From Bacteroidota bacterium (GTDB taxonomy: Bacteria > Bacteroidota > Bacteroidia > Palsa-948), in the NCBI GenBank assembly GCA_016213435.1, contig JACRAL010000104.1, forward strand, positions 1-51,071: a stretch of DNA of 51,071 nt, read 5' to 3'. The notes under the pieces are model-generated. The model was not told the DNA's origin. It did no database searches and saw only the letters and a list, made by a program, of their open reading frames with translations. This document shows, one piece after another, positions 7,883 to 31,415 of this stretch (the first letter of the stretch is position 1; each line of letters begins with the position of its first letter). A program made the translations under genes and the position numbers.

Positions 7883-10800
7883 ATGAAAGTATTGAAAGTC
7901 TTCGTTGTGTTTATTTTATGTTCTGCTGTCTACTGTCTGCTGCCTACTTCCTTACATGCTCAGGCACCTAAATCCTTCTCATCTGATTCGGTAAAATTTC
8001 TCAACGAGATGGATGATTGGTTCAGTTCGGTGAAGGGAAAAGAAAAAGAGGGACACGATTTTATCAAAGAACAATTCAAGTCTTTTTGGTTTGGCGGATA
8101 TCTGTCGGATGAGAAAAGGAAATTTGTTTACGTTGCCAGTAATACCATGCTTCAGAAAAAATTTCGTCCCTATCCTGATTATAACAACTTCTTCATGGCG
8201 ATGATTAATTTTTATAATGTCGCAAAACTTCAGGAAAGCAGTTTTCTTTCATGGAAAGCAAGTATAGAGAAATTGCTGTGGACTTCCAGTGCAAAAAAAC
8301 TTTCCGATTTTCTGGAATTCTCCGCGGACTTATTCGCTTCTAACACGCTTTATAGGTCAAATTATGTGGAATGGTTTTCCGGAAGCAACAACTACTCATT
8401 TGAATATGATTCATTGCCGAAAATTATTTTTTCTGAAACAAATATTTTCTGTGCCGTAAAAGCTGATACGGCATCCATTTTTGGTACATCAGGAACGTAT
8501 TATCCGACTGAGAAAAAATGGGTGGGCAAAGGAGGCAAAGTTACCTGGGAGCGCGATGGCATTGATGCAAAACTAATTCACGCTGAACTGGGCAGATACA
8601 CCGTCATTTTAACCAAGCAAAGCTATATTGCCGACTCAGTAAAATTCACCAACGAAATTTATTTCAAGACTCCAATCCTCGGTAAGTTGGAAGAGAAAGC
8701 AGTTCCTGACGCAACTCCTGAAAATGCAATCTATCCACGCTTTGAATCTTACAGTACGCGTTTCGAAATAAAAAATATTGCACAAGGTAAAGTAGATTTC
8801 TCCGGTGGATTTTCCCTTAGAGGCAGCAGGTTTATAGGCTCCGGAAATAAAACAGCTGATGCGTATCTTATTTTCAAACGCAACAATCAATCGATGATAA
8901 AAGCCTCCGGGAAAACATTTATTTTTAAGAAGGACAGAATTTCTTCTGATGACGCTGCCATCACTATGTATCTTGAAAAAGATTCTATTTATCACCCCTC
9001 CATCAAAGTAAAATTTGATATTGACACCAAAGAACTCGTATTGATCCGAATACTTGAAGGCATATCAAAAACTCCATATTTTAATACGTTTCACAAAGTG
9101 GATATGTATGTAGAAGAAATTGACTGGAAGCTAGATTCTGCCAATATGTATTTTAAAACGCTTCTCGGAAGTTCTCAGGGCATTGCGGAATTTGCTTCGG
9201 CTAGTTACTTCCGTGCTGAGGTTTTTTACCAGCTCTTGGGAATTGATCAGGTCCATCCGCTCAGTGCACTAAAAAGTTGCGCAGAACAGTTAAAGAGAAA
9301 AGAATTTACAGTCGAGGAATTTTCCAAGTGCAGGCGTCTTGATCCGAATGCAATCCGTCCTTCACTTATTGCTATTGCTAATCTTGGATTTATTATCTAT
9401 AAACCGGAAGAAGATATGATTATCATGCAGGACAGACTGTATCAATTCCTGAAAGCAAAAGCAGGTGCGGTGGACTATGATGTGATAGGAATTCATTCAG
9501 ATGTGCATGGCGGATCAACTAACGCGGTGCTTAATCTTCTTAATTACGATTTGAAAATTTTTGGTGTCTCTGAGATATTTCTTAGTGATTCGCAAAATGT
9601 ATTTCTTTATCCGTCAAAAAAACAAATTGTACTCAAGAAAAATCGCGACTTTGCTTTTGGCGGAGTGATGAATGCCGGTCGATTTACCATATTTGGCAAA
9701 GATTTCGTATTCAATTACGATCAGTTTAAGATTAAAATAAACAATGCTGACTCGCTTCGGTTCTCGGTGCGCAGATTGACTCCGGATGCTTTTGGAAATT
9801 CTCCCAATGTGCCTGTGAAGTCTGTTATAGAAGAAGTGCAGGGGGAGTTATTTATTGATCGTCCGAGCAATAAATCAGGCAGGATGTCTTTTCATCAATA
9901 TCCGATTTTTAACTCATCTAAAGAATCGTTTGTTTATTACAGTAAGCGGTCAATACAAAGAGGCGTTTACAAGCGCGATAAATTTTATTTCAAGATAGAT
10001 CCTTATTCGCTTGACAGCTTAGATGACTTTAAAACTGAAGCGTTGAAACTAAAAGGAACACTTGCTTCTGCAGGAATTTTTCCCGATTTTGTTGACACGC
10101 TTTCTATTCAGCCTGATTACTCGCTTGGGTTCATTCGCCCTGCACCCCAAGGGGGATTTGCTGCTTATGGAAATAAAGGGAAGTTTAATAATAAAATCAA
10201 ACTCAGTAATGAGGGATTGCGCGGAGACGGCACCATTGAGTATCTGACTTCTACTGCAAAATCTAGCAATGTGATTTTCTTTCCCGATTCAATGAATGGG
10301 TTGGCCGAAACATTTGAAGTGCAGGAACAGAAAGCAGAAAAAACAGAATACCCTCATGTGAAAGGCGACAGCGTTTATATTCATTGGACTCCCAAAAAAG
10401 ATTTAATGCAGGTCTATTCCCAAATTAAACCTATGGATTTTTATAATGGACAAGCACAGATGAAAGGCAGAGTAGATTATTCTTCCAATGAAATGGCAGG
10501 CAACGGGAAATTGACTTTTTCGAGTGCAAGTATGTCTGCTAGTCTTATGAAATTTAAAAACACAAAAGTTTTGTCAGATACGGCAAACTTTAGTCTGAAA
10601 TCACTACAAAGTTCACAATTTGCTTTCTCTACAAAGAATGTAAATGCCATTGTTGATTTTGAAAAGAGAACAGGAGATTTTGCATCGAACGGAAAAGGTT
10701 CTATTGTGGAGTTTCCTGTCAACCAGTATATCTGCTATATGGATAATTTTAAATGGTACATGGATAATGGCGACATTGAGATGACTTCACGTGATGCAAA

Positions 10801-12373
10801 AAAACCAAAAGCCGATCAACTGCTTGAACTTTCAGGTCCGGAATTTATTTCAACCAATCCTAAACAGGATTCTTTACGATTTAATGCGCCAAAGGCAAAA
10901 TTTGATTTTAAGAACTATATTATTTCAGCACAGGATGTGGCATGGATAAATGTTGCAGATGCAAAAATTTATCCGGACAGTGGTAAAGTGACCATCCTTA
11001 AAGCTGCTGAGATGAAAACTTTCTCCAATGCGAAAATAGTAGCTAACAGCGTCACGGCTTATCACTCTATTTACAAGGCAAATGTGAATATATTCGCAAG
11101 AAAAAACTATTCTGCATCGGGATATTATGATTATGTGGATGAAATGAAAAATAAACAGCCCCTTTATCTGGCAAATATTCGTGTAGATACTACTTATCAA
11201 ACAATTGCTGAAGCAATCATTCCTGATTCATTACATTTCATGCTTAGTCCGAATTATGAATTCAGAGGAAAAATGAATCTTGCTTCTAATAATCAGTTTA
11301 TGGTATTTACTGGATCTGCTAAGATTACTCATACCTGTGCCGCACTTGGAGAAGGAAAAACATGGTTCCAATTCTCCTCTCAAATTAATCCGGAGAAGAT
11401 ATTAATCCCAATCACCGATAAGCTAGACGATGATAAAGGCAAAACTCTTGGAGCTGCCATCATGGTGGCTGCGGACACATCGGGAATTTATTCAGCATTT
11501 CTCACAAAGAAAATACGTAAAACAGACTTTGAGGTTCTTGCGGCAACAGGATTTTTATTTTACGACAGGCAATCAAAAGAGTACCGCATTGCTTCGAAAG
11601 AAAAACTTAATGAACCATCTCTTGCCGGGAATTATTTGAGCCTAAAGTCAAATTCATGCACGGTGTATGGAGAAGGGAAGATGGGAACACTTGGTCTTGA
11701 TTTCGGGCAGGTGAAGATTGATGTGGTGGGAAATGCTTCTCACGATCTAAAAATTGATTCTGCAGAATTTAACATGATGATAGCGCTTGATTTCTTTTTT
11801 GAAAATCCAGCGCTTGAAAAAATGTCAGACCTTATTTTAAACAACACCACCTTAACAGGAGTAGCTGTTGGTACCACGTTTGAAAAAGGATTACACGAAC
11901 TTTTGGGGAAAGAAAAAGCCGACAAGCTTATTTCTGAAGTAAATCTCTATGGAAAGTTCAAGCGATTCCCTGAAGAACTGGAACACAGTATTTTTTTTAC
12001 AGATGTACACATGGTTTGGGATGATAAGAACAACGCGTATGTTTCTGATAAAACAATAGGTATTGGGTTCATTCGTAAAAATCAGATTAATAAATATGTG
12101 CAAGGAAAAATAGCGATGACAAAGAAAAGATCAGGAGATGTTCTCGATATCTATCTTGAGATTGATAATAACAATTGGTATTATTTCCGCTATACAAAAG
12201 GATTACTTACAGCCATTGCAAGTGATCAGGAGTTCAATAAATCTATTCAGGAACTGAAATCAGATAAACGTTCATTAAAAACTGAGCGAGGACAAACTCC
12301 TTATACATTTTCTATTGGGTCTGACCAGCAAAAAAAACTTTTTCTGAGAAAATTTAAGAACGTAGAAGATTAA
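7883..12373 (+). CDS. Very large exported protein of unknown function (1496 aa)
   Basis: I do not recognise this protein. Residues 1-26 form a signal peptide (core VFVVFILCSAVYCLLP, cleavage after LHA). The mature part starts with a helical region (about 28-170), then over 1200 residues dominated by short alternating polar and hydrophobic stretches. Recurrent phrases such as KVDFSGGFSLRGSRF, FNYDQFKIKINNADSLRFSV and GLRGDGTIEYLT suggest a long beta-rich fold. I see no transmembrane helix apart from the signal, and no T9SS C-terminal domain or catalytic motif. It starts 15 bp after the phosphohexomutase and is followed by plsY, so it is probably co-transcribed. A periplasmic or outer-membrane-associated role is inferred only from the signal peptide. 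Part of the signal peptide is a 7-bp repeat (7923-7950). Confidence 0.85.
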   Translation: MKVLKVFVVFILCSAVYCLLPTSLHAQAPKSFSSDSVKFLNEMDDWFSSVKGKEKEGHDFIKEQFKSFWFGGYLSDEKRKFVYVASNTMLQKKFRPYPDYNNFFMAMINFYNVAKLQESSFLSWKASIEKLLWTSSAKKLSDFLEFSADLFASNTLYRSNYVEWFSGSNNYSFEYDSLPKIIFSETNIFCAVKADTASIFGTSGTYYPTEKKWVGKGGKVTWERDGIDAKLIHAELGRYTVILTKQSYIADSVKFTNEIYFKTPILGKLEEKAVPDATPENAIYPRFESYSTRFEIKNIAQGKVDFSGGFSLRGSRFIGSGNKTADAYLIFKRNNQSMIKASGKTFIFKKDRISSDDAAITMYLEKDSIYHPSIKVKFDIDTKELVLIRILEGISKTPYFNTFHKVDMYVEEIDWKLDSANMYFKTLLGSSQGIAEFASASYFRAEVFYQLLGIDQVHPLSALKSCAEQLKRKEFTVEEFSKCRRLDPNAIRPSLIAIANLGFIIYKPEEDMIIMQDRLYQFLKAKAGAVDYDVIGIHSDVHGGSTNAVLNLLNYDLKIFGVSEIFLSDSQNVFLYPSKKQIVLKKNRDFAFGGVMNAGRFTIFGKDFVFNYDQFKIKINNADSLRFSVRRLTPDAFGNSPNVPVKSVIEEVQGELFIDRPSNKSGRMSFHQYPIFNSSKESFVYYSKRSIQRGVYKRDKFYFKIDPYSLDSLDDFKTEALKLKGTLASAGIFPDFVDTLSIQPDYSLGFIRPAPQGGFAAYGNKGKFNNKIKLSNEGLRGDGTIEYLTSTAKSSNVIFFPDSMNGLAETFEVQEQKAEKTEYPHVKGDSVYIHWTPKKDLMQVYSQIKPMDFYNGQAQMKGRVDYSSNEMAGNGKLTFSSASMSASLMKFKNTKVLSDTANFSLKSLQSSQFAFSTKNVNAIVDFEKRTGDFASNGKGSIVEFPVNQYICYMDNFKWYMDNGDIEMTSRDAKKPKADQLLELSGPEFISTNPKQDSLRFNAPKAKFDFKNYIISAQDVAWINVADAKIYPDSGKVTILKAAEMKTFSNAKIVANSVTAYHSIYKANVNIFARKNYSASGYYDYVDEMKNKQPLYLANIRVDTTYQTIAEAIIPDSLHFMLSPNYEFRGKMNLASNNQFMVFTGSAKITHTCAALGEGKTWFQFSSQINPEKILIPITDKLDDDKGKTLGAAIMVAADTSGIYSAFLTKKIRKTDFEVLAATGFLFYDRQSKEYRIASKEKLNEPSLAGNYLSLKSNSCTVYGEGKMGTLGLDFGQVKIDVVGNASHDLKIDSAEFNMMIALDFFFENPALEKMSDLILNNTTLTGVAVGTTFEKGLHELLGKEKADKLISEVNLYGKFKRFPEELEHSIFFTDVHMVWDDKNNAYVSDKTIGIGFIRKNQINKYVQGKIAMTKKRSGDVLDIYLEIDNNNWYYFRYTKGLLTAIASDQEFNKSIQELKSDKRSLKTERGQTPYTFSIGSDQQKKLFLRKFKNVED
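7923..7950. repeat. Heptanucleotide repeat, CTGCTGT/CTACTGT units (signal peptide of 1496-aa protein)
   Basis: Four consecutive 7-bp units CTGCTGT, CTACTGT, CTGCTGC, CTACTTC. They encode the end of the hydrophobic core of the signal peptide, much as in bamA. Confidence 0.65.
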
Positions 12374-24248: not shown

Positions 24249-25226
24249 TTATCTCTTTTCAGATGGTAGAGGAACACTTAGTATTCCTTTGAGGGTTTTA
24301 TCAAAGTCATTCGGCTTATCAATCTTTTTGGTTTCAACTTTATCCTCTAAATCCTGAAAGGGGATTTCTTTTTGTCCATATTTTTCTTCCATTAATTTTA
24401 AAAATTGTCTTTTTGTTTCAGCTATTGAAGCAAGTGCTTCAACGGAATAAATTACTTTCTTTAAAGTTTCTCTTCCCTTTTCAGGTGTTAAAGATTGATG
24501 TAGTCTATATTTATAATTCCCTCCAGATGTACGAGGTGTTTTTTCTTTTAGTTTATCCAAAACAAAAGTTCCTTTCGGAAGATTTTCATATACAAATTTG
24601 TTCGTTAAGTGTCCTATAAATTGAGGTTTTCTATTGATATTTTTTTGAGTGAAAGGAATATTCCATAATCTAAAAATTTCTTTATAAAAACTCAAATGAA
24701 ATGCTTCTTGCCATTTTAATATTTCATCTGAAATTAATTCTTTTAAAACTGCCTGTAATTCAAACTTTTCTCTTTCATATTGGTATCCTGTGGCTTCATC
24801 CACAAGTGCAATAATTCCAACTTTAGCAAATGAACGCATCAGTATTTCACATTCTTTCGCTATTATTTCTTGTCTCGTAGATAAATGAATATTTCTTCTT
24901 GCCTCTAAAAATCCATCGCATATATCAACAAGTATTGTGGCTTCATATCCGTGAATTTTTGTATCTCCTTTAAAGCAAATTAATGGCTTAAAGTGGTCCA
25001 GGTCTTTGTCCTTGAAAATGAATGGGTTAAGTGTCTTTTGGCTCAAATGTCGGGTCAATCTTGTCCCTGCTGTTTGTTTGCCTTCTTCCTCATCAACCAT
25101 CTTTAAAGCTGTTTGCATTGCACGACTAGACAAAACTCTTGTTCCGTCATTCAATACATAGCAAGGAATAGTATTCCCGCCTAATGGCAATTCTCCTTCG
25201 TATTTTACAATTCTATCTTTACTCAT
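24249..25226 (-). CDS. P63C domain-containing protein, IS passenger
   Basis: The 325-residue product carries a P63C-type domain (named from phage-related proteins, function unknown). Segments that led me to this call are YEGELPLGGNTIPCYVLNDG, RLTRHLSQKTLNPFIF, ILVDICDGFLEARRN and IALVDEATGYQYEREKFELQ, with RLHQSLTPEKGRETLKKVI nearer the end. The protein is cytoplasmic, with no membrane segment. It overlaps the transposase gene by 8 bp and is thus translated with it. It could help target choice or regulate transposition, but that is a guess. It is not an accidental neighbour, because it lies inside the inverted repeats. Confidence 0.8.
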   Translation of the reverse strand: MSKDRIVKYEGELPLGGNTIPCYVLNDGTRVLSSRAMQTALKMVDEEEGKQTAGTRLTRHLSQKTLNPFIFKDKDLDHFKPLICFKGDTKIHGYEATILVDICDGFLEARRNIHLSTRQEIIAKECEILMRSFAKVGIIALVDEATGYQYEREKFELQAVLKELISDEILKWQEAFHLSFYKEIFRLWNIPFTQKNINRKPQFIGHLTNKFVYENLPKGTFVLDKLKEKTPRTSGGNYKYRLHQSLTPEKGRETLKKVIYSVEALASIAETKRQFLKLMEEKYGQKEIPFQDLEDKVETKKIDKPNDFDKTLKGILSVPLPSEKR

Positions 25227-26142
25227 GACTTGTAAGTTGTTTATAGGTTATTTTTTTTGACACTGAATTTAATAATAAGTTGAATCTAACTTCTTGCGTT
25301 AAAGTACGAGTATTGTAACGATATGAAAATTCATCTATGTACTTTTGCAAATGCTTCTTGCTTGTGTAGTGGTATATGCCAATTATTCCACGCTTGAATA
25401 AACTCCAGAAATTTTCAATACTGTTAATGTGCGTGTTTCCATCTACATATTCGCCTCCTGCATGGTTTATACTAAGATGAGTGTAGTTCTTTTTAAGTGG
25501 ACGATAAGATTTTAATTCATCTGACATTATAGTTGAGCCAGTTTGCACAATGTTGTTAATGATAGGTAAAAGTGTTTTGCTATTTCTTTCGCTTATTGTT
25601 TGTGCTTGAACATCGCCACCTCTTTCAAGTGCGCCAAATACTATTGCTTTATTTGCTCCGCCCTGGGAACCTTTTATCTTTTTGTTGCTATGTTTATTGG
25701 TTTCCTTTCCACCTACAAATGTTTCATCTACTTCAATCGTTCCTTTCATTTCTTTTTTAAAGTTCTCATGTCCGAAAGCATAACGAACTCTATGTAGAAC
25801 AAACCAAGCAGATTTTTGAGTGATAGATAAGTCCCTTGCTAATTGATGGGAAGATATTCCCTTCTTGTGATTTGCTATAAGGTAGATGGCAATAAACCAT
25901 TTCTGCAAAGGAATTTTTGTATCATCAAAAATTGTTCCTGTGCGAACATTAAAATACTTCCCTGTGATTTTACACTTGTACTTTCCTCCAGCACATTTGT
26001 AAACTTTGGAATCTTTGTTGAATGGAGAAACGATTTGTCCGTTCCATCTCATTGCCTCTAAATGTTCATTACATTTTTGCTCAGTAGAAAAGTTTCTAAC
26101 GAGTTCGAGGACGTTTTTGAATGCTGTTATTTGAAGTTCCAT
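25219..26142 (-). CDS. IS1595-family transposase (ISXO2-like domain)
   Basis: The 307-residue product has an N-terminal zinc-ribbon-like region in which the cysteines are only partly kept (CNEHLEAMRW, then YKCAGGKYKCKITGKYF), followed by HQLARDLSITQKSAWFVLHR (HTH). The DDE-type catalytic core of the ISXO2 family shows IEVDETFVGGKETNKH (first Asp), IMSDELKSYRPL (second Asp) and HINSIENFWSLFKRGIIG (the N/E signature). The length and domain order are complete. The start is 86 bp inside the right end of the element. Confidence 0.92.
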   Translation of the reverse strand: MELQITAFKNVLELVRNFSTEQKCNEHLEAMRWNGQIVSPFNKDSKVYKCAGGKYKCKITGKYFNVRTGTIFDDTKIPLQKWFIAIYLIANHKKGISSHQLARDLSITQKSAWFVLHRVRYAFGHENFKKEMKGTIEVDETFVGGKETNKHSNKKIKGSQGGANKAIVFGALERGGDVQAQTISERNSKTLLPIINNIVQTGSTIMSDELKSYRPLKKNYTHLSINHAGGEYVDGNTHINSIENFWSLFKRGIIGIYHYTSKKHLQKYIDEFSYRYNTRTLTQEVRFNLLLNSVSKKITYKQLTSHE

Positions 26143-27872: not shown

Positions 27873-27946
27873 GGTCCTGTAGCTCAGCTGGATAGAGCAA
27901 CGGTTTTCTAAACCGTAGGTCCCTGGTTCGAATCCAGGCGGGACTA
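27873..27946 (+). tRNA. tRNA-Arg (anticodon UCU)
   Basis: A complete cloverleaf: acceptor GGTCCTG/CGGGACT, D arm GCTC-AGCTGGATA-GAGC, anticodon stem ACGGT/ACCGT with loop TTTCTAA (anticodon TCT at 27907-27909), T arm CCTGG-TTCGAAT-CCAGG. There is a discriminator A and no encoded CCA. It reads AGA codons. Its last bases are the attachment site of the adjoining integrative element. Confidence 0.96.
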
Positions 27947-27947
27947 C
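27933..27947 (+). repeat. attL, 15-bp direct repeat at the tRNA-Arg 3' end
   Basis: TCCAGGCGGGACTAC, part of the T arm and acceptor of tRNA-Arg, is repeated exactly at 31401-31415. The tRNA stays intact on the left side. Confidence 0.88.
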
Positions 27948-27963
27948 TCTAATAATCACTAAG

Positions 27964-28000
27964 CCATTGTAAATTAATAACTTACAATGGTTATTTTTTT
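27964..28000 (+). terminator. Rho-independent terminator after tRNA-Arg
   Basis: The perfect stem CCATTGTAA (27964-27972) pairs with TTACAATGG (27982-27990), followed by a T-rich tract to 28000. It lies inside the integrative element, so the element supplies the terminator for the host tRNA. Confidence 0.8.
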
Positions 28001-28002
28001 GC

Positions 28003-28024
28003 TGTTGTCGGTACTGTTGTCGTT
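28003..28024 (+). repeat. Paired arm-type repeats, left end of element
   Basis: TGTTGTCGGT (28003-28012) and TGTTGTCGTT (28015-28024) start 12 bp apart. The same pair with the same 12-bp spacing is found at 31262-31283 near the other end. They are likely recombinase arm-binding sites. Confidence 0.65.
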
Positions 28025-28045
28025 TCAAATGAATATCTACCTTTG
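28017..28045 (+). promoter_or_regulatory. Promoter of the HTH gene (TTG-N18-TACCTTTG)
   Basis: The -7 box TACCTTTG (28038-28045) matches TAnnTTTG. TTG at 28017-28019, 18 bp before it, lies inside the second arm-type repeat. Recombinase binding could therefore block transcription of the HTH gene. Confidence 0.55.
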
Positions 28046-28071
28046 TTGCACACATTTGTAATAAATAACCA

Positions 28072-28353
28072 ATGGCACTTTCCCGCACCCCTTCCAACTT
28101 AGTCAATGAAGTAGCCAAGCAGAACAGGGAACTTTTAACCGTTGTAGGTAGTATTATTGAATATTATAAGAAATCAGAAGGAATCAGCGATTACACCATT
28201 GCAAGCAGGGCGGGTTGTAGCCGGAGCATGATATATCAACTAAGAAAGGGAACGGTTGGATATTGTGGCATTAGTACGATCACCAAGATAGCAGCGTCAT
28301 TTAATTGTAATCTTCTTGAATGGTTGAGAAGTGTGCCACCACAGGAACAATAA
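28072..28353 (+). CDS. Small helix-turn-helix (XRE-like) regulator
   Basis: The 93-residue protein has a HTH region at about 43-85: ISDYTIASRAGCSRSMIYQL, then RKGTVGYCGISTITKIAASF. This is the pattern of lambda-repressor-like domains. It is the leftmost gene of the tRNA-Arg element and the only one on the plus strand. It is divergent in orientation from the other cargo, as expected for a regulator. The targets are unknown. Confidence 0.72.
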   Translation: MALSRTPSNLVNEVAKQNRELLTVVGSIIEYYKKSEGISDYTIASRAGCSRSMIYQLRKGTVGYCGISTITKIAASFNCNLLEWLRSVPPQEQ

Positions 28354-28366
28354 GTTATTTCCTTTC

Positions 28367-28678
28367 TCAAAACCTGTAAAAAGAAATATGATTATACATA
28401 TATTCTCTCCCCCAGAAATCATTAAAATTAAAGGTGCTTAATACTAATTTACTACCAAGAACTACAGGAGTGTTTTTAACACCACCGCAAGTTACATATA
28501 CTATATGTTTATTATCTCCAACATTCTGTTCTGCTATTATTATAGTACTATCGTTTATTACTTTATAAACTATTGCAACATGATTTCTATTAATGATATT
28601 TCCTTTCTTATCTTTTGCATCAGAAAATAGAATCATGTCCCCTTCCTGAATATGTTTTTTGCTTATTTGGTGTTCCAT
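28367..28678 (-). CDS. Small protein resembling the C-terminal half of a CHAP/NlpC-like domain
   Basis: I start it at ATG 28678 (103 aa); an earlier ATG at 28711 is possible but overlaps the upstream gene more. The segment EGDMILFSDAKDK, then NHVAIVYKVINDSTIIIAEQ, looks like the second half of CHAP or NlpC/P60 amidase domains, with the His (NHVAIV) and a Glu (AEQN). The N-terminal lobe that would carry the catalytic Cys is not present. It could be a remnant or a different small fold. It overlaps the 3' end of the upstream gene by 16 bp, so the two are probably co-translated. Confidence 0.55.
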   Translation of the reverse strand: MEHQISKKHIQEGDMILFSDAKDKKGNIINRNHVAIVYKVINDSTIIIAEQNVGDNKHIVYVTCGGVKNTPVVLGSKLVLSTFNFNDFWGREYMYNHISFYRF

Positions 28679-29106
28679 GAAATATTTACATTTAATTGTG
28701 TAGCATACCATTCTTTAAGCAATACAAAACTTCCAGTAGGGCGTCCGGGCAAAGAGAAATAGGGAATATCATTTTGTTCATAATAAAAACCAAATTTTTT
28801 TTCCGCCTCATGCTGGTCTTTTATTACTTGATACTCTTTTCCGTTTTTGCCTTCAATAACATTATGAATTTCTAAATTAAATTCCGGTCTGAATTTTTCA
28901 TTATTGGGGTTGGGATATTTTCTCCTGATTTTTTCTATTGAGTTACCATCCTTAGTAGCATAAATAACATAACGCATCTTTGTAATGCACCATTCCTGTA
29001 CCTGTATCAAATAAACGATGGGATAATTATCAATATGCTCATAGGAAGATTTTTTTTCAAATCTCCACAAAGAATAATCAGGGAGTTTTTCTATTTGTTT
29101 TTTCAT
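28663..29106 (-). CDS. Hypothetical protein, cargo of the tRNA-Arg element
   Basis: I start it at ATG 29106 (MKKQIEKLPDYSLWRFEKKS, 147 aa); the longer frame to 29193 has a poor leader. I do not recognise the family. It is a soluble mixed alpha/beta protein with many charged and aromatic residues (MRYVIYATKDGNSIEKIRRK, EKKFGFYYEQNDIPYFSLPG). There is no signal peptide. It overlaps the following CHAP-like gene by 16 bp, which suggests the two products act together. Confidence 0.6.
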   Translation of the reverse strand: MKKQIEKLPDYSLWRFEKKSSYEHIDNYPIVYLIQVQEWCITKMRYVIYATKDGNSIEKIRRKYPNPNNEKFRPEFNLEIHNVIEGKNGKEYQVIKDQHEAEKKFGFYYEQNDIPYFSLPGRPTGSFVLLKEWYATQLNVNISWNTK

Positions 29107-29290
29107 TACTTGCGGTTTAAATATTTGAACTATTGTGTAAATGCTTGTACTTACTACCTTGTTTTTGAGTGGCGCAAGTTTTAAAAAAACCACCCCTACC
29201 CCTATTTTTTTTCCTTATCAGGTAATTTGTACCCTATCGGTTTGCGTTCAGGTTTTGGAGGTTCGGGAGGAGAGTGAGTTGAAAAGAATG

Positions 29291-29848
29291 TTACTTTTTA
29301 AACCCTATTCGTTCCCTTTCTTCCCATTTTTTTTCAGCAGCTTTTTCATCTAATAAATTTTCTATCGCTTCGTATATATGTGAAATCTGTAAATCATGGC
29401 TTCCGATTCGTTTCTTTATTTCCTGTAACTGCTTTTTAATATCCCTGTGGCTTAATGCTATTTTCCTTACCTCGACAAACGCTCTCATTATGGCTATATT
29501 CATTTTTATTGCCTTATCGGAATTTAAAACACCGCTTAACATGGCTACTCCCTGCTCTGTAAAGGCAAAGGGTAAATATTTATCTGTTCGGTTTTGTGGT
29601 AAAACCATCATCACAGTTTGTGATGATGAACTTTTTTTAATTGCTTCAACTTGAAATTTTATGCTTTCAAATTCATTAGGTTTAAGCTGAAACATGAAAT
29701 CTTCAGGGAAACGGTCAATATTGCGTTTTACCGCTTGGTTCAAAACTCTTGTTTCAACTTCGTAAAGGGCTGCTAAATCAAAATCGAGCATTACTCTTTC
29801 GCCCCTAAGTTCATATATCCTGCTTTGAACGCTTTTAATAATTTTCAT
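29291..29848 (-). CDS. ORF6N domain-containing protein
   Basis: The 185-residue product has an N-terminal ORF6N domain (about 8-100): IYELRGERVMLDFDLAALYE, VLNQAVKRNIDRFPEDFMFQ, YLPFAFTEQGVAMLSGVLNS. This DNA-binding-type domain (KilA-N/Bro related) is common on phages and mobile elements. The C-terminal part (about 120-175) is a coiled coil (HRDIKKQLQEIKKRIGSHDL). The role on this element is unknown, possibly regulatory. It lies just downstream of the recombinase gene on the same strand. Confidence 0.87.
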   Translation of the reverse strand: MKIIKSVQSRIYELRGERVMLDFDLAALYEVETRVLNQAVKRNIDRFPEDFMFQLKPNEFESIKFQVEAIKKSSSSQTVMMVLPQNRTDKYLPFAFTEQGVAMLSGVLNSDKAIKMNIAIMRAFVEVRKIALSHRDIKKQLQEIKKRIGSHDLQISHIYEAIENLLDEKAAEKKWEERERIGFKK

Positions 29849-29888
29849 TTTATTGAGTTTGATTTATAGATGTAATTTGAAACTTCAA

Positions 29889-31211
29889 TTAAACCGCCTG
29901 CAATTTGTGTTTTTTTTGCCAATGCAGTTGCAATATTTTTGCACTTTCATTTGGAGTAATTTTAATGTAACGCATAAATGCTTTTTCGGTTTTGTGTCCG
30001 GTTATTTTCATTATTGTAATTGGGGGCACACCGTCTAAATAAAGATTTGAAGCGAAACTCCTTCGTGCTGTGTGCATTGTAATTAATTCAAACTTTTTAT
30101 TATTTGTTGTAATGTTTACTCCCCCTTTTGTAATACTTGTAGGGGTTTGAGCATGAAGACTTTTTGTTGTTTTTTCCAACTCCTTAATTTCGCCTAACTC
30201 CTTAATGTATTCGTTCATCTTTACATTTGAAATTGCAGGAGGTAATGAGTTAGGGTATTTCCCTTTGTACTTTTTCATTGTTTGTTTAACTGTCCAATGA
30301 ATAGGAATAGAAACTGGTTCGGCAGTTTTTTTTGTTTCAATCTCGATAAAATCTCCTTTGATGTTTTCGGGTTTTATATTTGAGAAATCGGAAAACCGTA
30401 AACCAGTCCAGCAACCTACTAAAAACAAGTCCCGCACACGATCTAAGCGTGAATTGTTGCTCAAATCTAATTTATATATTGCCTCCAGTTCTTTTTCGTT
30501 GAGGTAAATACTATCTGTTTCCTCTGTAATTACTTTGAAACGCTTGCTTTTATAGGCGAGGTTTGTATTGATTCCTCTTTCAGTTGCTTCATTTAAAAAG
30601 GTTTTAATTCTTTTAATGTGTCCTCCTATTGTGTTATTTGCAAACCCAATTTCTTTAGTCAGGTACTCTGAGAAATCGTGATAAAAGTCGAGGTCTATGG
30701 TATTGAAGTCAATTCGTTTCCCTTTTTTCTTTTTGAAATCATGCAAAAGACGCAAGGTATTTTTGTAAGCATGAATTATTCCTGCTGAATACATCCTGCC
30801 TGTTTTATCATTAATCCTGCTTTTTGATTCTTCAATAAACTTTTCTATAAACGAAAACAAATCCTTTTTTTTGATATTGGAAGATGGGTTAAATTTATTA
30901 TAGAGCAACTCTCTCAACTCCTCAACTGTGGGTTGCCTATGTTCATTGTCGTTTTCAAACCTCCTAAAAATATCTTTTGCATCCCCTTTTATTTTATCTA
31001 ACTTGGCGTTAAATTCAGGGTATGTAGGGAACTGTTTTGTTTCAGTTGCACGTTGAAAGTTTCGTTTCTCTTTGTCTGTTTCCCAAAACTTTGGGTTAAT
31101 TCTTTCTTTAGTTGGAAATACTAAGCGGTTATTGTTCCACCTAACAACGAGGTGTACTGCCGTTTCCCCTTCGCTTTCCGGCTCTCGTAAATTGAAATTG
31201 AATTTTGCCAT
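29889..31211 (-). CDS. Tyrosine recombinase / integrase (SAM-like core-binding domain)
   Basis: The 440-residue integrase of the Bacteroidota mobile-element type has an N-terminal arm-binding region (VVRWNNNRLVFPTKERINPK) and a SAM-like core-binding domain (about 100-230). The catalytic domain shows GCWTGLRFSDF (first Arg), HTARRSFASNLYLDG (His and second Arg) and GHKTEKAFMRYIKI (His and the Tyr nucleophile). All catalytic residues are present, so it looks active. It lies at the right end of the tRNA-Arg element, next to attR. Confidence 0.94.
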   Translation of the reverse strand: MAKFNFNLREPESEGETAVHLVVRWNNNRLVFPTKERINPKFWETDKEKRNFQRATETKQFPTYPEFNAKLDKIKGDAKDIFRRFENDNEHRQPTVEELRELLYNKFNPSSNIKKKDLFSFIEKFIEESKSRINDKTGRMYSAGIIHAYKNTLRLLHDFKKKKGKRIDFNTIDLDFYHDFSEYLTKEIGFANNTIGGHIKRIKTFLNEATERGINTNLAYKSKRFKVITEETDSIYLNEKELEAIYKLDLSNNSRLDRVRDLFLVGCWTGLRFSDFSNIKPENIKGDFIEIETKKTAEPVSIPIHWTVKQTMKKYKGKYPNSLPPAISNVKMNEYIKELGEIKELEKTTKSLHAQTPTSITKGGVNITTNNKKFELITMHTARRSFASNLYLDGVPPITIMKITGHKTEKAFMRYIKITPNESAKILQLHWQKKHKLQAV

Positions 31212-31261
31212 GTGTATAAAAGCTGTAAGTTTGAATATGGTAAAGATAAAAAGATTCGTTC

Positions 31262-31283
31262 TGTTGTCGGTTTTGTTGTCGGT
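31262..31283 (+). repeat. Paired arm-type repeats, right end of element
   Basis: TGTTGTCGGT at 31262-31271 and again at 31274-31283, the same 12-bp spacing and orientation as the left pair. They lie in the promoter region of the integrase gene. Confidence 0.65.
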
Positions 31284-31400
31284 TTTATTTTATTTCTCTT
31301 ACTTTTCCTTAATCTTCCTTTTTCATAAAATCTTAATTTACCTATGAGTTTAAGGATGAGAACAGGAAAAATCAGAAAAATGGGAAATTAAAGGTAACAG

Positions 31401-31415
31401 TCCAGGCGGGACTAC
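31401..31415 (+). repeat. attR, 15-bp direct repeat
   Basis: TCCAGGCGGGACTAC, identical to 27933-27947 in tRNA-Arg. The bases before it (GTAACAG) do not continue the tRNA, so this marks the edge of the element. Confidence 0.88.

Follow-up and report, generated by a model that had tools for sequence, protein, structure and literature searches.

A 3.5-kb element in an arginine-tRNA gene is probably a reduced member of a family of small tRNA-integrating elements in Bacteroidota

In a Bacteroidota genome of 3.7 Mb, 3.5 kb of mobile DNA has integrated where a gene for arginine tRNA ends, raising the question of what kind of element this is and whether it can move by itself. The preliminary description of the window, by which we mean the whole 51,071-nucleotide stretch analyzed, had proposed a minimal integrative element in tRNA-Arg(UCU), bracketed by a 15-bp direct repeat of the tRNA 3' end and small enough to be a phage satellite or a defence island. 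The repeat is exact at both positions, and the five ORFs listed in that description are all confirmed between its copies: a complete tyrosine recombinase of 440 aa, the ORF6N gene, a pair of overlapping orphans and a small HTH gene. Our analysis additionally reveals, behind the tRNA, a terminator hairpin and, just inside both ends, tandem integrase arm sites with a 12-bp period (GTTGTCGGTNNNGTTGTCG). The integration and attachment features are as follows.

27873-27947, + strand: tRNA-Arg(UCU), intact, the integration target (ARAGORN; Rfam RF00005, 69.5 bits)
27933-27947, + strand: attL core TCCAGGCGGGACTAC, the 3' end of the tRNA (exact 15-bp repeat)
27962-28000, + strand: hairpin with T-run immediately after the tRNA, a terminator of the tRNA transcript that the element carries (-11.6 kcal/mol, z -3.3)
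28004-28023, + strand: left-hand pair of integrase arm sites at 12-bp spacing, GTTGTCGGTACTGTTGTCGT
29889-31211, - strand: tyrosine recombinase (integrase) of 440 aa, oriented towards the tRNA (Pfam Arm-DNA-bind_5, SAM_5 and Phage_integrase)
31263-31282, + strand: right-hand pair of integrase arm sites at 12-bp spacing, GTTGTCGGTTTTGTTGTCGG, lying 52 bp ahead of the integrase start
31401-31415, + strand: attR core TCCAGGCGGGACTAC, exact repeat, lying 190 bp ahead of the integrase start (median in the family 181)

A chance origin of the repeat was rejected, given two matches in the window (allowing up to 2 mismatches) against 0.04 expected and the presence of tRNA-end repeats, 10-24 nt long, upstream of the integrase in 44 related elements inserted in many tRNA genes of other Bacteroidota. 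In 44 of 45 other loci, the homologous integrase is likewise enclosed by a tRNA gene and a repeat of that gene's 3' end, the remaining locus being cut by a contig end. We therefore regard the 15-bp repeat as a real att pair; together with the 44 related elements, it bears out the proposed integrative element. In the nearest congener (G001), the tRNA carries the identical 15-mer once only, and the repeat is therefore no feature of the unoccupied tRNA. The proposed ancestral order ftsY - tRNA-Arg - mazG, on the other hand, was seen in none of six congeners: mazG has no tRNA of any kind next to it in these six same-genus genomes, and neither ftsY nor mazG is a detectable neighbour of tRNA-Arg in the five where tRNA-Arg was found. 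Since gene order is rearranged in these congeners, the exact empty site cannot be reconstructed, and neither an excised circle nor a polymorphic empty site was seen.

The arm pattern occurs at only two places in the whole 3.7-Mb genome, the left and the right pair. The predicted arm repeat unit of the window element is GTTGTCGG, with GGGGACGA representing the arms of another motif class. Across the 44 related elements, arms and hairpin keep the same offsets, and a change of motif in the arms at one end is mirrored at the other, with left and right arms matching on average at 18.0 of 20 positions within an element, compared to 14.9 between elements and 13.4 after shuffling. Likewise, 43 of the 44 present a fold of -8 kcal/mol or lower behind the tRNA (mean -19.3, compared to -6.9 elsewhere in the element) and 43 of the 44 a T-run in this position. 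This architecture suggests that the integrase binds both core and arm sites, bridging them. Its residues R272, K295, H380, R383, H406 and Y415 occupy invariant alignment columns, its Pfam families are PF17293, PF13102 and PF00589, and its identity to the integrases of related elements is 82% (over the C-terminal 49 aa), 68%, 60% and lower.

The relatives (L062, L074, L050, L078, L110 and others) share with the window element the integrase family, the att cores at the tRNA 3' end, the tandem arms with a 12-bp period, the terminator behind the tRNA and a distal integrase reading towards the tRNA. They differ in being larger (4.8-11 kb with the exception of L077, mostly 5.6-7.6 kb, median 6.6 kb) and in adding an HTH_17 gene, in most cases a Rep of the rolling-circle type (PF23343, Rep_1 or a type without assignment), and a cargo slot that often holds identifiable defence genes and is rich in restriction-modification, OLD/AriA/PtuA-like and other defence functions. 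Among elements no longer than 9 kb, 39 of 41 have HTH_17, as do 70 of 75 genome loci, and both HTH_17 and Rep are found in the two closest relatives, L062 and L074 (the 82% and 68% matches above). The window element presents an ORF6N gene and orphans instead of HTH_17, Rep and identifiable defence cargo. In L154, with the order int-ORF6N-(449 aa)-HTH_17-Rep, the int-ORF6N end of the window element is still joined to the module that the window element is missing. The label "minimal" thus holds with respect to the family median, but a smaller element exists: L077, in tRNA-Arg(ACG), comprises 1.9 kb with only an integrase. Like the window element it lacks HTH_17 and Rep and has the same att layout and arm motif (GTTGTCGGTTTGGTTGTCGG); unlike it, it carries no cargo, and its integrase is 51% identical. 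We found no description of this family in the literature, in a search that did not extend to most subscription journals.

Profile and domain searches agree with the earlier statement that excisionase, mobilisation and replication genes are missing. The c1 profile detects no excisionase-like HTH_17 in the whole window, the c2 and c5 profiles detect no Rep there, and Pfam scans of the five ORFs reveal neither a Rep family nor a relaxase domain. Elsewhere in the genome, HTH_17 was not found with the L062 protein as query, in a search run without a positive control, and c5-Rep and PF23343, the two Rep types searched genome-wide, gave no match; the assembly consists of 216 contigs, and a helper element elsewhere could escape notice.

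The genes between the tRNA and the integrase are the following.

28072-28353, + strand: HTH gene, 93 aa, Cro/C1-type (HTH_26; Pfam 27.1 bits, cut-off 22)
28367-28678, - strand: CHAP-like half domain (P0002), about 103 aa (Pfam CHAP 26.4 bits at a cut-off of 26)
28663-29106, - strand: orphan gene P0003, 147 aa (coding signal z 5.0)
29291-29848, - strand: ORF6N gene, 185 aa (PF10543, 114 bits), following the integrase after 40 bp and sharing its strand

The ORF6N protein belongs to the PADLOC candidate family PDC-S05 (E 8e-54) and has a 49% identical relative in the same place in L154; an ORF6N gene adjoining the integrase also recurs in a Bacteroides plasmid record. The HTH gene has a weak codon signal (z 1.3) and lies directly behind the left arms with a promoter-like box, a -7-like TACCTTTG at 28038, ahead of it. 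P0003 has no match in Pfam, PHROG, PADLOC or NCBIfam and no relatives in genome_contigs, viral_contigs or phages, with only two borderline matches in 395 genomes; for P0002, nothing rises above noise in viral_contigs or phages, and one match in the 395 genomes is borderline. Neither orphan yielded anything significant against PDB sequences. Structure prediction was useless for P0003 (pLDDT 33.5) and weak for the CHAP-like ORF (53.2), whose model matched, among others, the LysK CHAP domain in Foldseek without significance.

These cargo genes could also be drifting in a decayed, immobile remnant, with P0003 and the CHAP-like ORF as halves of one frame-shifted gene. The CHAP match spans only the second half of the profile, and the CHAP-like ORF, which opens at 28711 with a likely start at ATG 28678, overlaps the upstream P0003 by 16 nt. 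Reading both together starts the match at profile position 29 rather than 43 and raises it from 25.9 bits (for the shorter ORF form) to 28.1, a small gain that restores no catalytic Cys. The strong coding signal of P0003 and the intact integrase, arms and cores further argue against decay, making this scenario unlikely.

A second alternative is a compact but complete autonomous element, in which the Cro-like HTH protein or ORF6N would act as excisionase or regulator and which, having no Rep of its own, would spread through natural transformation, generalised transduction or a conjugative helper. All five ORFs are open, the att and arm architecture is perfect, and both the recurrence of ORF6N beside integrases and the position of the HTH gene with its box are consistent with this possibility. 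We nonetheless consider it somewhat unlikely, given that both closest relatives carry HTH_17 and Rep and that a Cro/C1-type HTH differs from the HTH_17 type of nearly all elements.

A phage satellite (PICI/PICMI-like), excised and packaged upon helper-phage infection, is very improbable, and this suggestion of the preliminary description found no direct support. PICMI satellites of Vibrionaceae average 6.7 kb, with an int-alpA-prim core at fis (PMC10803314). The window element resembles them in its small size and few genes, and the fuller relatives approach their layout and size by combining, in about 6.6 kb, integrase, small regulator (HTH_17), replication gene (Rep) and defence cargo; relatives are also present in IMG/VR, although this may reflect the integrase alone. 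Against this, no primase, AlpA, terminase, capsid-remodelling or packaging gene was found among the five ORFs (Pfam and PHROG; AlpA and primase also NCBIfam), no helper is known, and the site is tRNA-Arg rather than fis. NBU1/NBU2-type elements of Bacteroides are likewise tyrosine-integrase elements of Bacteroidota at a tRNA 3' end, but their MobP relaxase and their mobilisation by conjugative elements (PMC5704250) set them apart from the window element, which has no detectable relaxase domain.

Taken together, these data indicate that the window element is likely a reduced offshoot, probably non-autonomous, of a family of small elements that integrate into tRNA genes of Bacteroidota. Among the family traits, it has the homologous integrase with an N-terminal arm-binding domain, the two att cores, the two arm pairs and the terminator, all in the family arrangement; the HTH_17 and Rep genes of the nearest relatives are absent and are best read as lost. 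Speaking against such a loss, the stretch that separates P0003 from ORF6N holds no convincing trace of deleted sequence; a short "PPEPPKPERKPIGYKLPDKE" reading frame lies there but has no good match. Because integrase and attachment sites are kept and the excision-type and replication genes of its relatives are absent, it represents a reduced variant of a recognisable kind, nothing new in principle. In the proposed mechanism, the integrase would recombine attP, on a circle, with the 3' end of tRNA-Arg, an event that would leave the tRNA sequence intact while the element supplies the terminator. Because its promoter region overlaps the right arms, the integrase, at the far end, is probably self-repressed, as negative autoregulation is predicted for the enterobacterial KplE1-type prophage modules, with their TorI directionality factor, in which the attachment region overlaps the integrase promoter (PMC2951348). 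For excision, a directionality factor would have to come from another element, unless the ORF6N or HTH protein takes that role; that either gene could encode such a factor weakens the term "non-autonomous". The genes between the tRNA and ORF6N would fill the family's cargo slot, probably with host-benefit (defence or stabilisation) functions. The idea of a defence island draws on the defence genes that relatives hold in this slot: a defence role is plausible from position, and the cargo itself matches only the candidate PDC-S05 (ORF6N).

We further propose, as a speculation of quite low probability, that the window element and L077 constitute a class of mini-elements keeping only integrase and complete attachment sites and moved by fuller family members, which could in turn be satellites; packaging by filamentous (ssDNA) phages would be in keeping with the narrow size range of the fuller members, 5.6-7.6 kb, and with their G2P-type Reps.

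By itself, the window element is a small mobile element, and greater weight falls on the family that it exposes: a tRNA-targeting family across the Bacteroidota with a readable attachment code (paired arms changing in step), exchangeable Reps and a defence-rich cargo slot. The paired-arm signature allows such elements to be found and exactly bounded from sequence alone, even without recognisable genes, and L077 and the window element illustrate how far such reduction can go.

The preliminary description reported a tRNA-Arg(UCU) end repeat bracketing an integrase, an ORF6N gene, an HTH gene and two small genes. This arrangement was confirmed and could be bounded precisely: the 15-nt end of the tRNA has two matches in the window, against 0.04 expected by chance, and five ORFs lie between the two copies.

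27873-27947: tRNA-Arg(UCU)
28072-28353, + strand: HTH gene
28367-28678, - strand: CHAP-like ORF (half domain)
28663-29106, - strand: orphan gene P0003 (147 aa)
29291-29848, - strand: ORF6N gene
29889-31211, - strand: tyrosine recombinase (integrase, 440 aa)
31401-31415: exact repeat of the last 15 nt of tRNA-Arg(UCU), TCCAGGCGGGACTAC

The G+C content is about 0.30-0.37 over most of the element, compared with up to 0.46 in its flanks, and the coding signal is good for P0003 (z 5.0), moderate for the CHAP-like ORF and weak for the HTH gene. Residues R272, K295, H380, R383, H406 and Y415 of the integrase, which we take to be the catalytic residues, are invariant in an alignment of nine integrases. 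Within the spacer between P0003 and the ORF6N gene (29107-29290), a short open stretch on the - strand reads FFSTHSPPEPPKPERKPIGYKLPDKEKK and may represent the end of a gene that has been lost; a search for relatives found none.

Scanning the integrase alignment against genome and viral collections yielded 160 loci. At 45 loci from the genome collections the integrase has downstream of it a tRNA gene of opposite orientation (Asp, Phe, Met, Leu, Gln, Glu, Thr and Arg among them), and 44 of these loci have 10-24 nt from the 3' end of that tRNA repeated upstream of the integrase start, mostly at 150-210 bp; at the one remaining locus the integrase is truncated by the end of its contig. The 44 elements have a median size of 6.6 kb (36 between 5.6 and 7.6 kb), a cluster that persists across differing cargoes and Rep types, as if element size were constrained. 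The closest integrases are those of loci L062 (82% identity over the 49 C-terminal residues present on its contig) and L074 (68%). No description of this family was found in the literature searched, the coverage of which was incomplete.

Just inside its ends, the window element carries 8-nt motif pairs with 12-bp spacing, GTTGTCGGTACTGTTGTCGT at 28004 and GTTGTCGGTTTTGTTGTCGG at 31263, the only two occurrences of this arm pattern in the 3.7-Mb genome with one mismatch allowed. Comparison of the left and right ends of this and 39 related elements revealed that the best 20-nt match between ends has a mean of 18.0 within the same element, compared with 14.9 across different elements and 13.4 in shuffled sequence, with the left pair usually starting 53-58 nt behind the tRNA. 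The motif varies among elements (GTTGTCGG, GGTGTCGG, GGGGACGA, GGGCATCG, GGGTACA), but the two ends of any one element share it, the pattern to be expected if each integrase binds the arms of its own element. Directly behind tRNA-Arg(UCU) the sequence forms a predicted hairpin accompanied by a T-run (-11.6 kcal/mol, z -3.3); neither this hairpin nor the arms were part of the preliminary description. Among 44 elements, the 58-nt stretch following the tRNA has a folding energy of -8 kcal/mol or lower in 43 (mean -19.3 kcal/mol versus -6.9 elsewhere in the element), and a T-run is present in 43. With matched arms, hairpin and T-run, the recombination sites of the window element look intact.

Of 75 genome loci, 70 have an excisionase-like HTH_17 gene, as do 39 of the 41 relatives up to 9 kb. 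Of these 41 relatives, 25 carry a PF23343-type Rep cluster and eight another Rep-like cluster, with the variable region adjoining the tRNA. Both L062 and L074 have HTH_17 and Rep, the latter assigned in L062 by resemblance to the Rep-like cluster c5 only and in L074 by PF01446. A profile search of the window recovered neither gene, in agreement with the earlier statement that excisionase and replication genes are missing, and searches of the rest of the source genome found no match either, the last of them having no positive control. Related integrases and HTH_17 genes are accompanied by differing Reps (Rep_1, PF23343 or an unassigned type) in L074, L062, L110 and others, which suggests an exchange of modules.

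In the IMG/VR contig L154, int is followed in order by ORF6N (49% identical to that of the window), a 449-aa gene, an HTH_17-like gene, another gene and a Rep-like gene, so that the int-ORF6N pair of the window matches an end portion of a more complete element. More reduced still is L077, a 1.9-kb element with intact arms that has only an integrase between tRNA-Arg(ACG) and the repeated tRNA end (9960-11790); its contig is labelled Saccharibacteria, probably a binning error because its relatives are Bacteroidota. In L070, from the same genus (G002:C33), a hairpin and TTACGGGCAATATTACGGGG, with a 12-bp period, come directly after tRNA-Arg(UCU) (8364-8438, - strand). This flank resembles the left end of a further element of this type, and its 8.6-kb contig holds no family integrase.

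The tRNA-side slot of relatives encodes methyltransferases, restriction enzymes (DpnII, BglII), an EcoRI-type methylase, OLD/AriA/PtuA/GajA-like ATPases, Abi_alpha, GmrSD and Fic proteins, most of the 97 proteins scanned having no match in the listed families. The window cargo consists of the HTH gene, P0003 and the CHAP-like half domain, and the only defence-model match in the element is the ORF6N protein (candidate PADLOC model PDC-S05). No relatives of the orphan genes were found in the genome and viral/phage collections searched; samples of 395 genomes gave three borderline hits (E 0.001-0.01).

The ancestral order ftsY - tRNA-Arg - mazG proposed previously was not borne out: in six same-genus genomes mazG has no adjoining tRNA, and tRNA-Arg, found in five of them, has as its only detectable neighbour in common with the window a BamA-like gene in the nearest congener (G001), at a distance from the tRNA of 4 kb in that genome and 23 kb in the window. 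This congener carries the same 15-mer once, and the locus without the element was seen in no genome examined. An IS1595-type (ISXO2-like) transposase gene (25219-26142, - strand, PF12762) lies 1.7 kb upstream of the tRNA.

The analysis shows the attachment-site pair, the matched arms, the terminator, the integrase with intact catalytic residues and the absence of HTH_17 and Rep; the mechanism is inferred. The integrase would recombine the attP of a circular form with the 3' end of the tRNA, leaving the tRNA whole, with the element providing its terminator. Because its start has the right arms about 50 bp upstream, the integrase may be autorepressed, in the way reported for KplE1 (PMC2951348). 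Excision would need a factor from elsewhere, or the ORF6N or HTH protein. Taken together, these results identify the window element as a reduced member of a widespread group of integrative elements.
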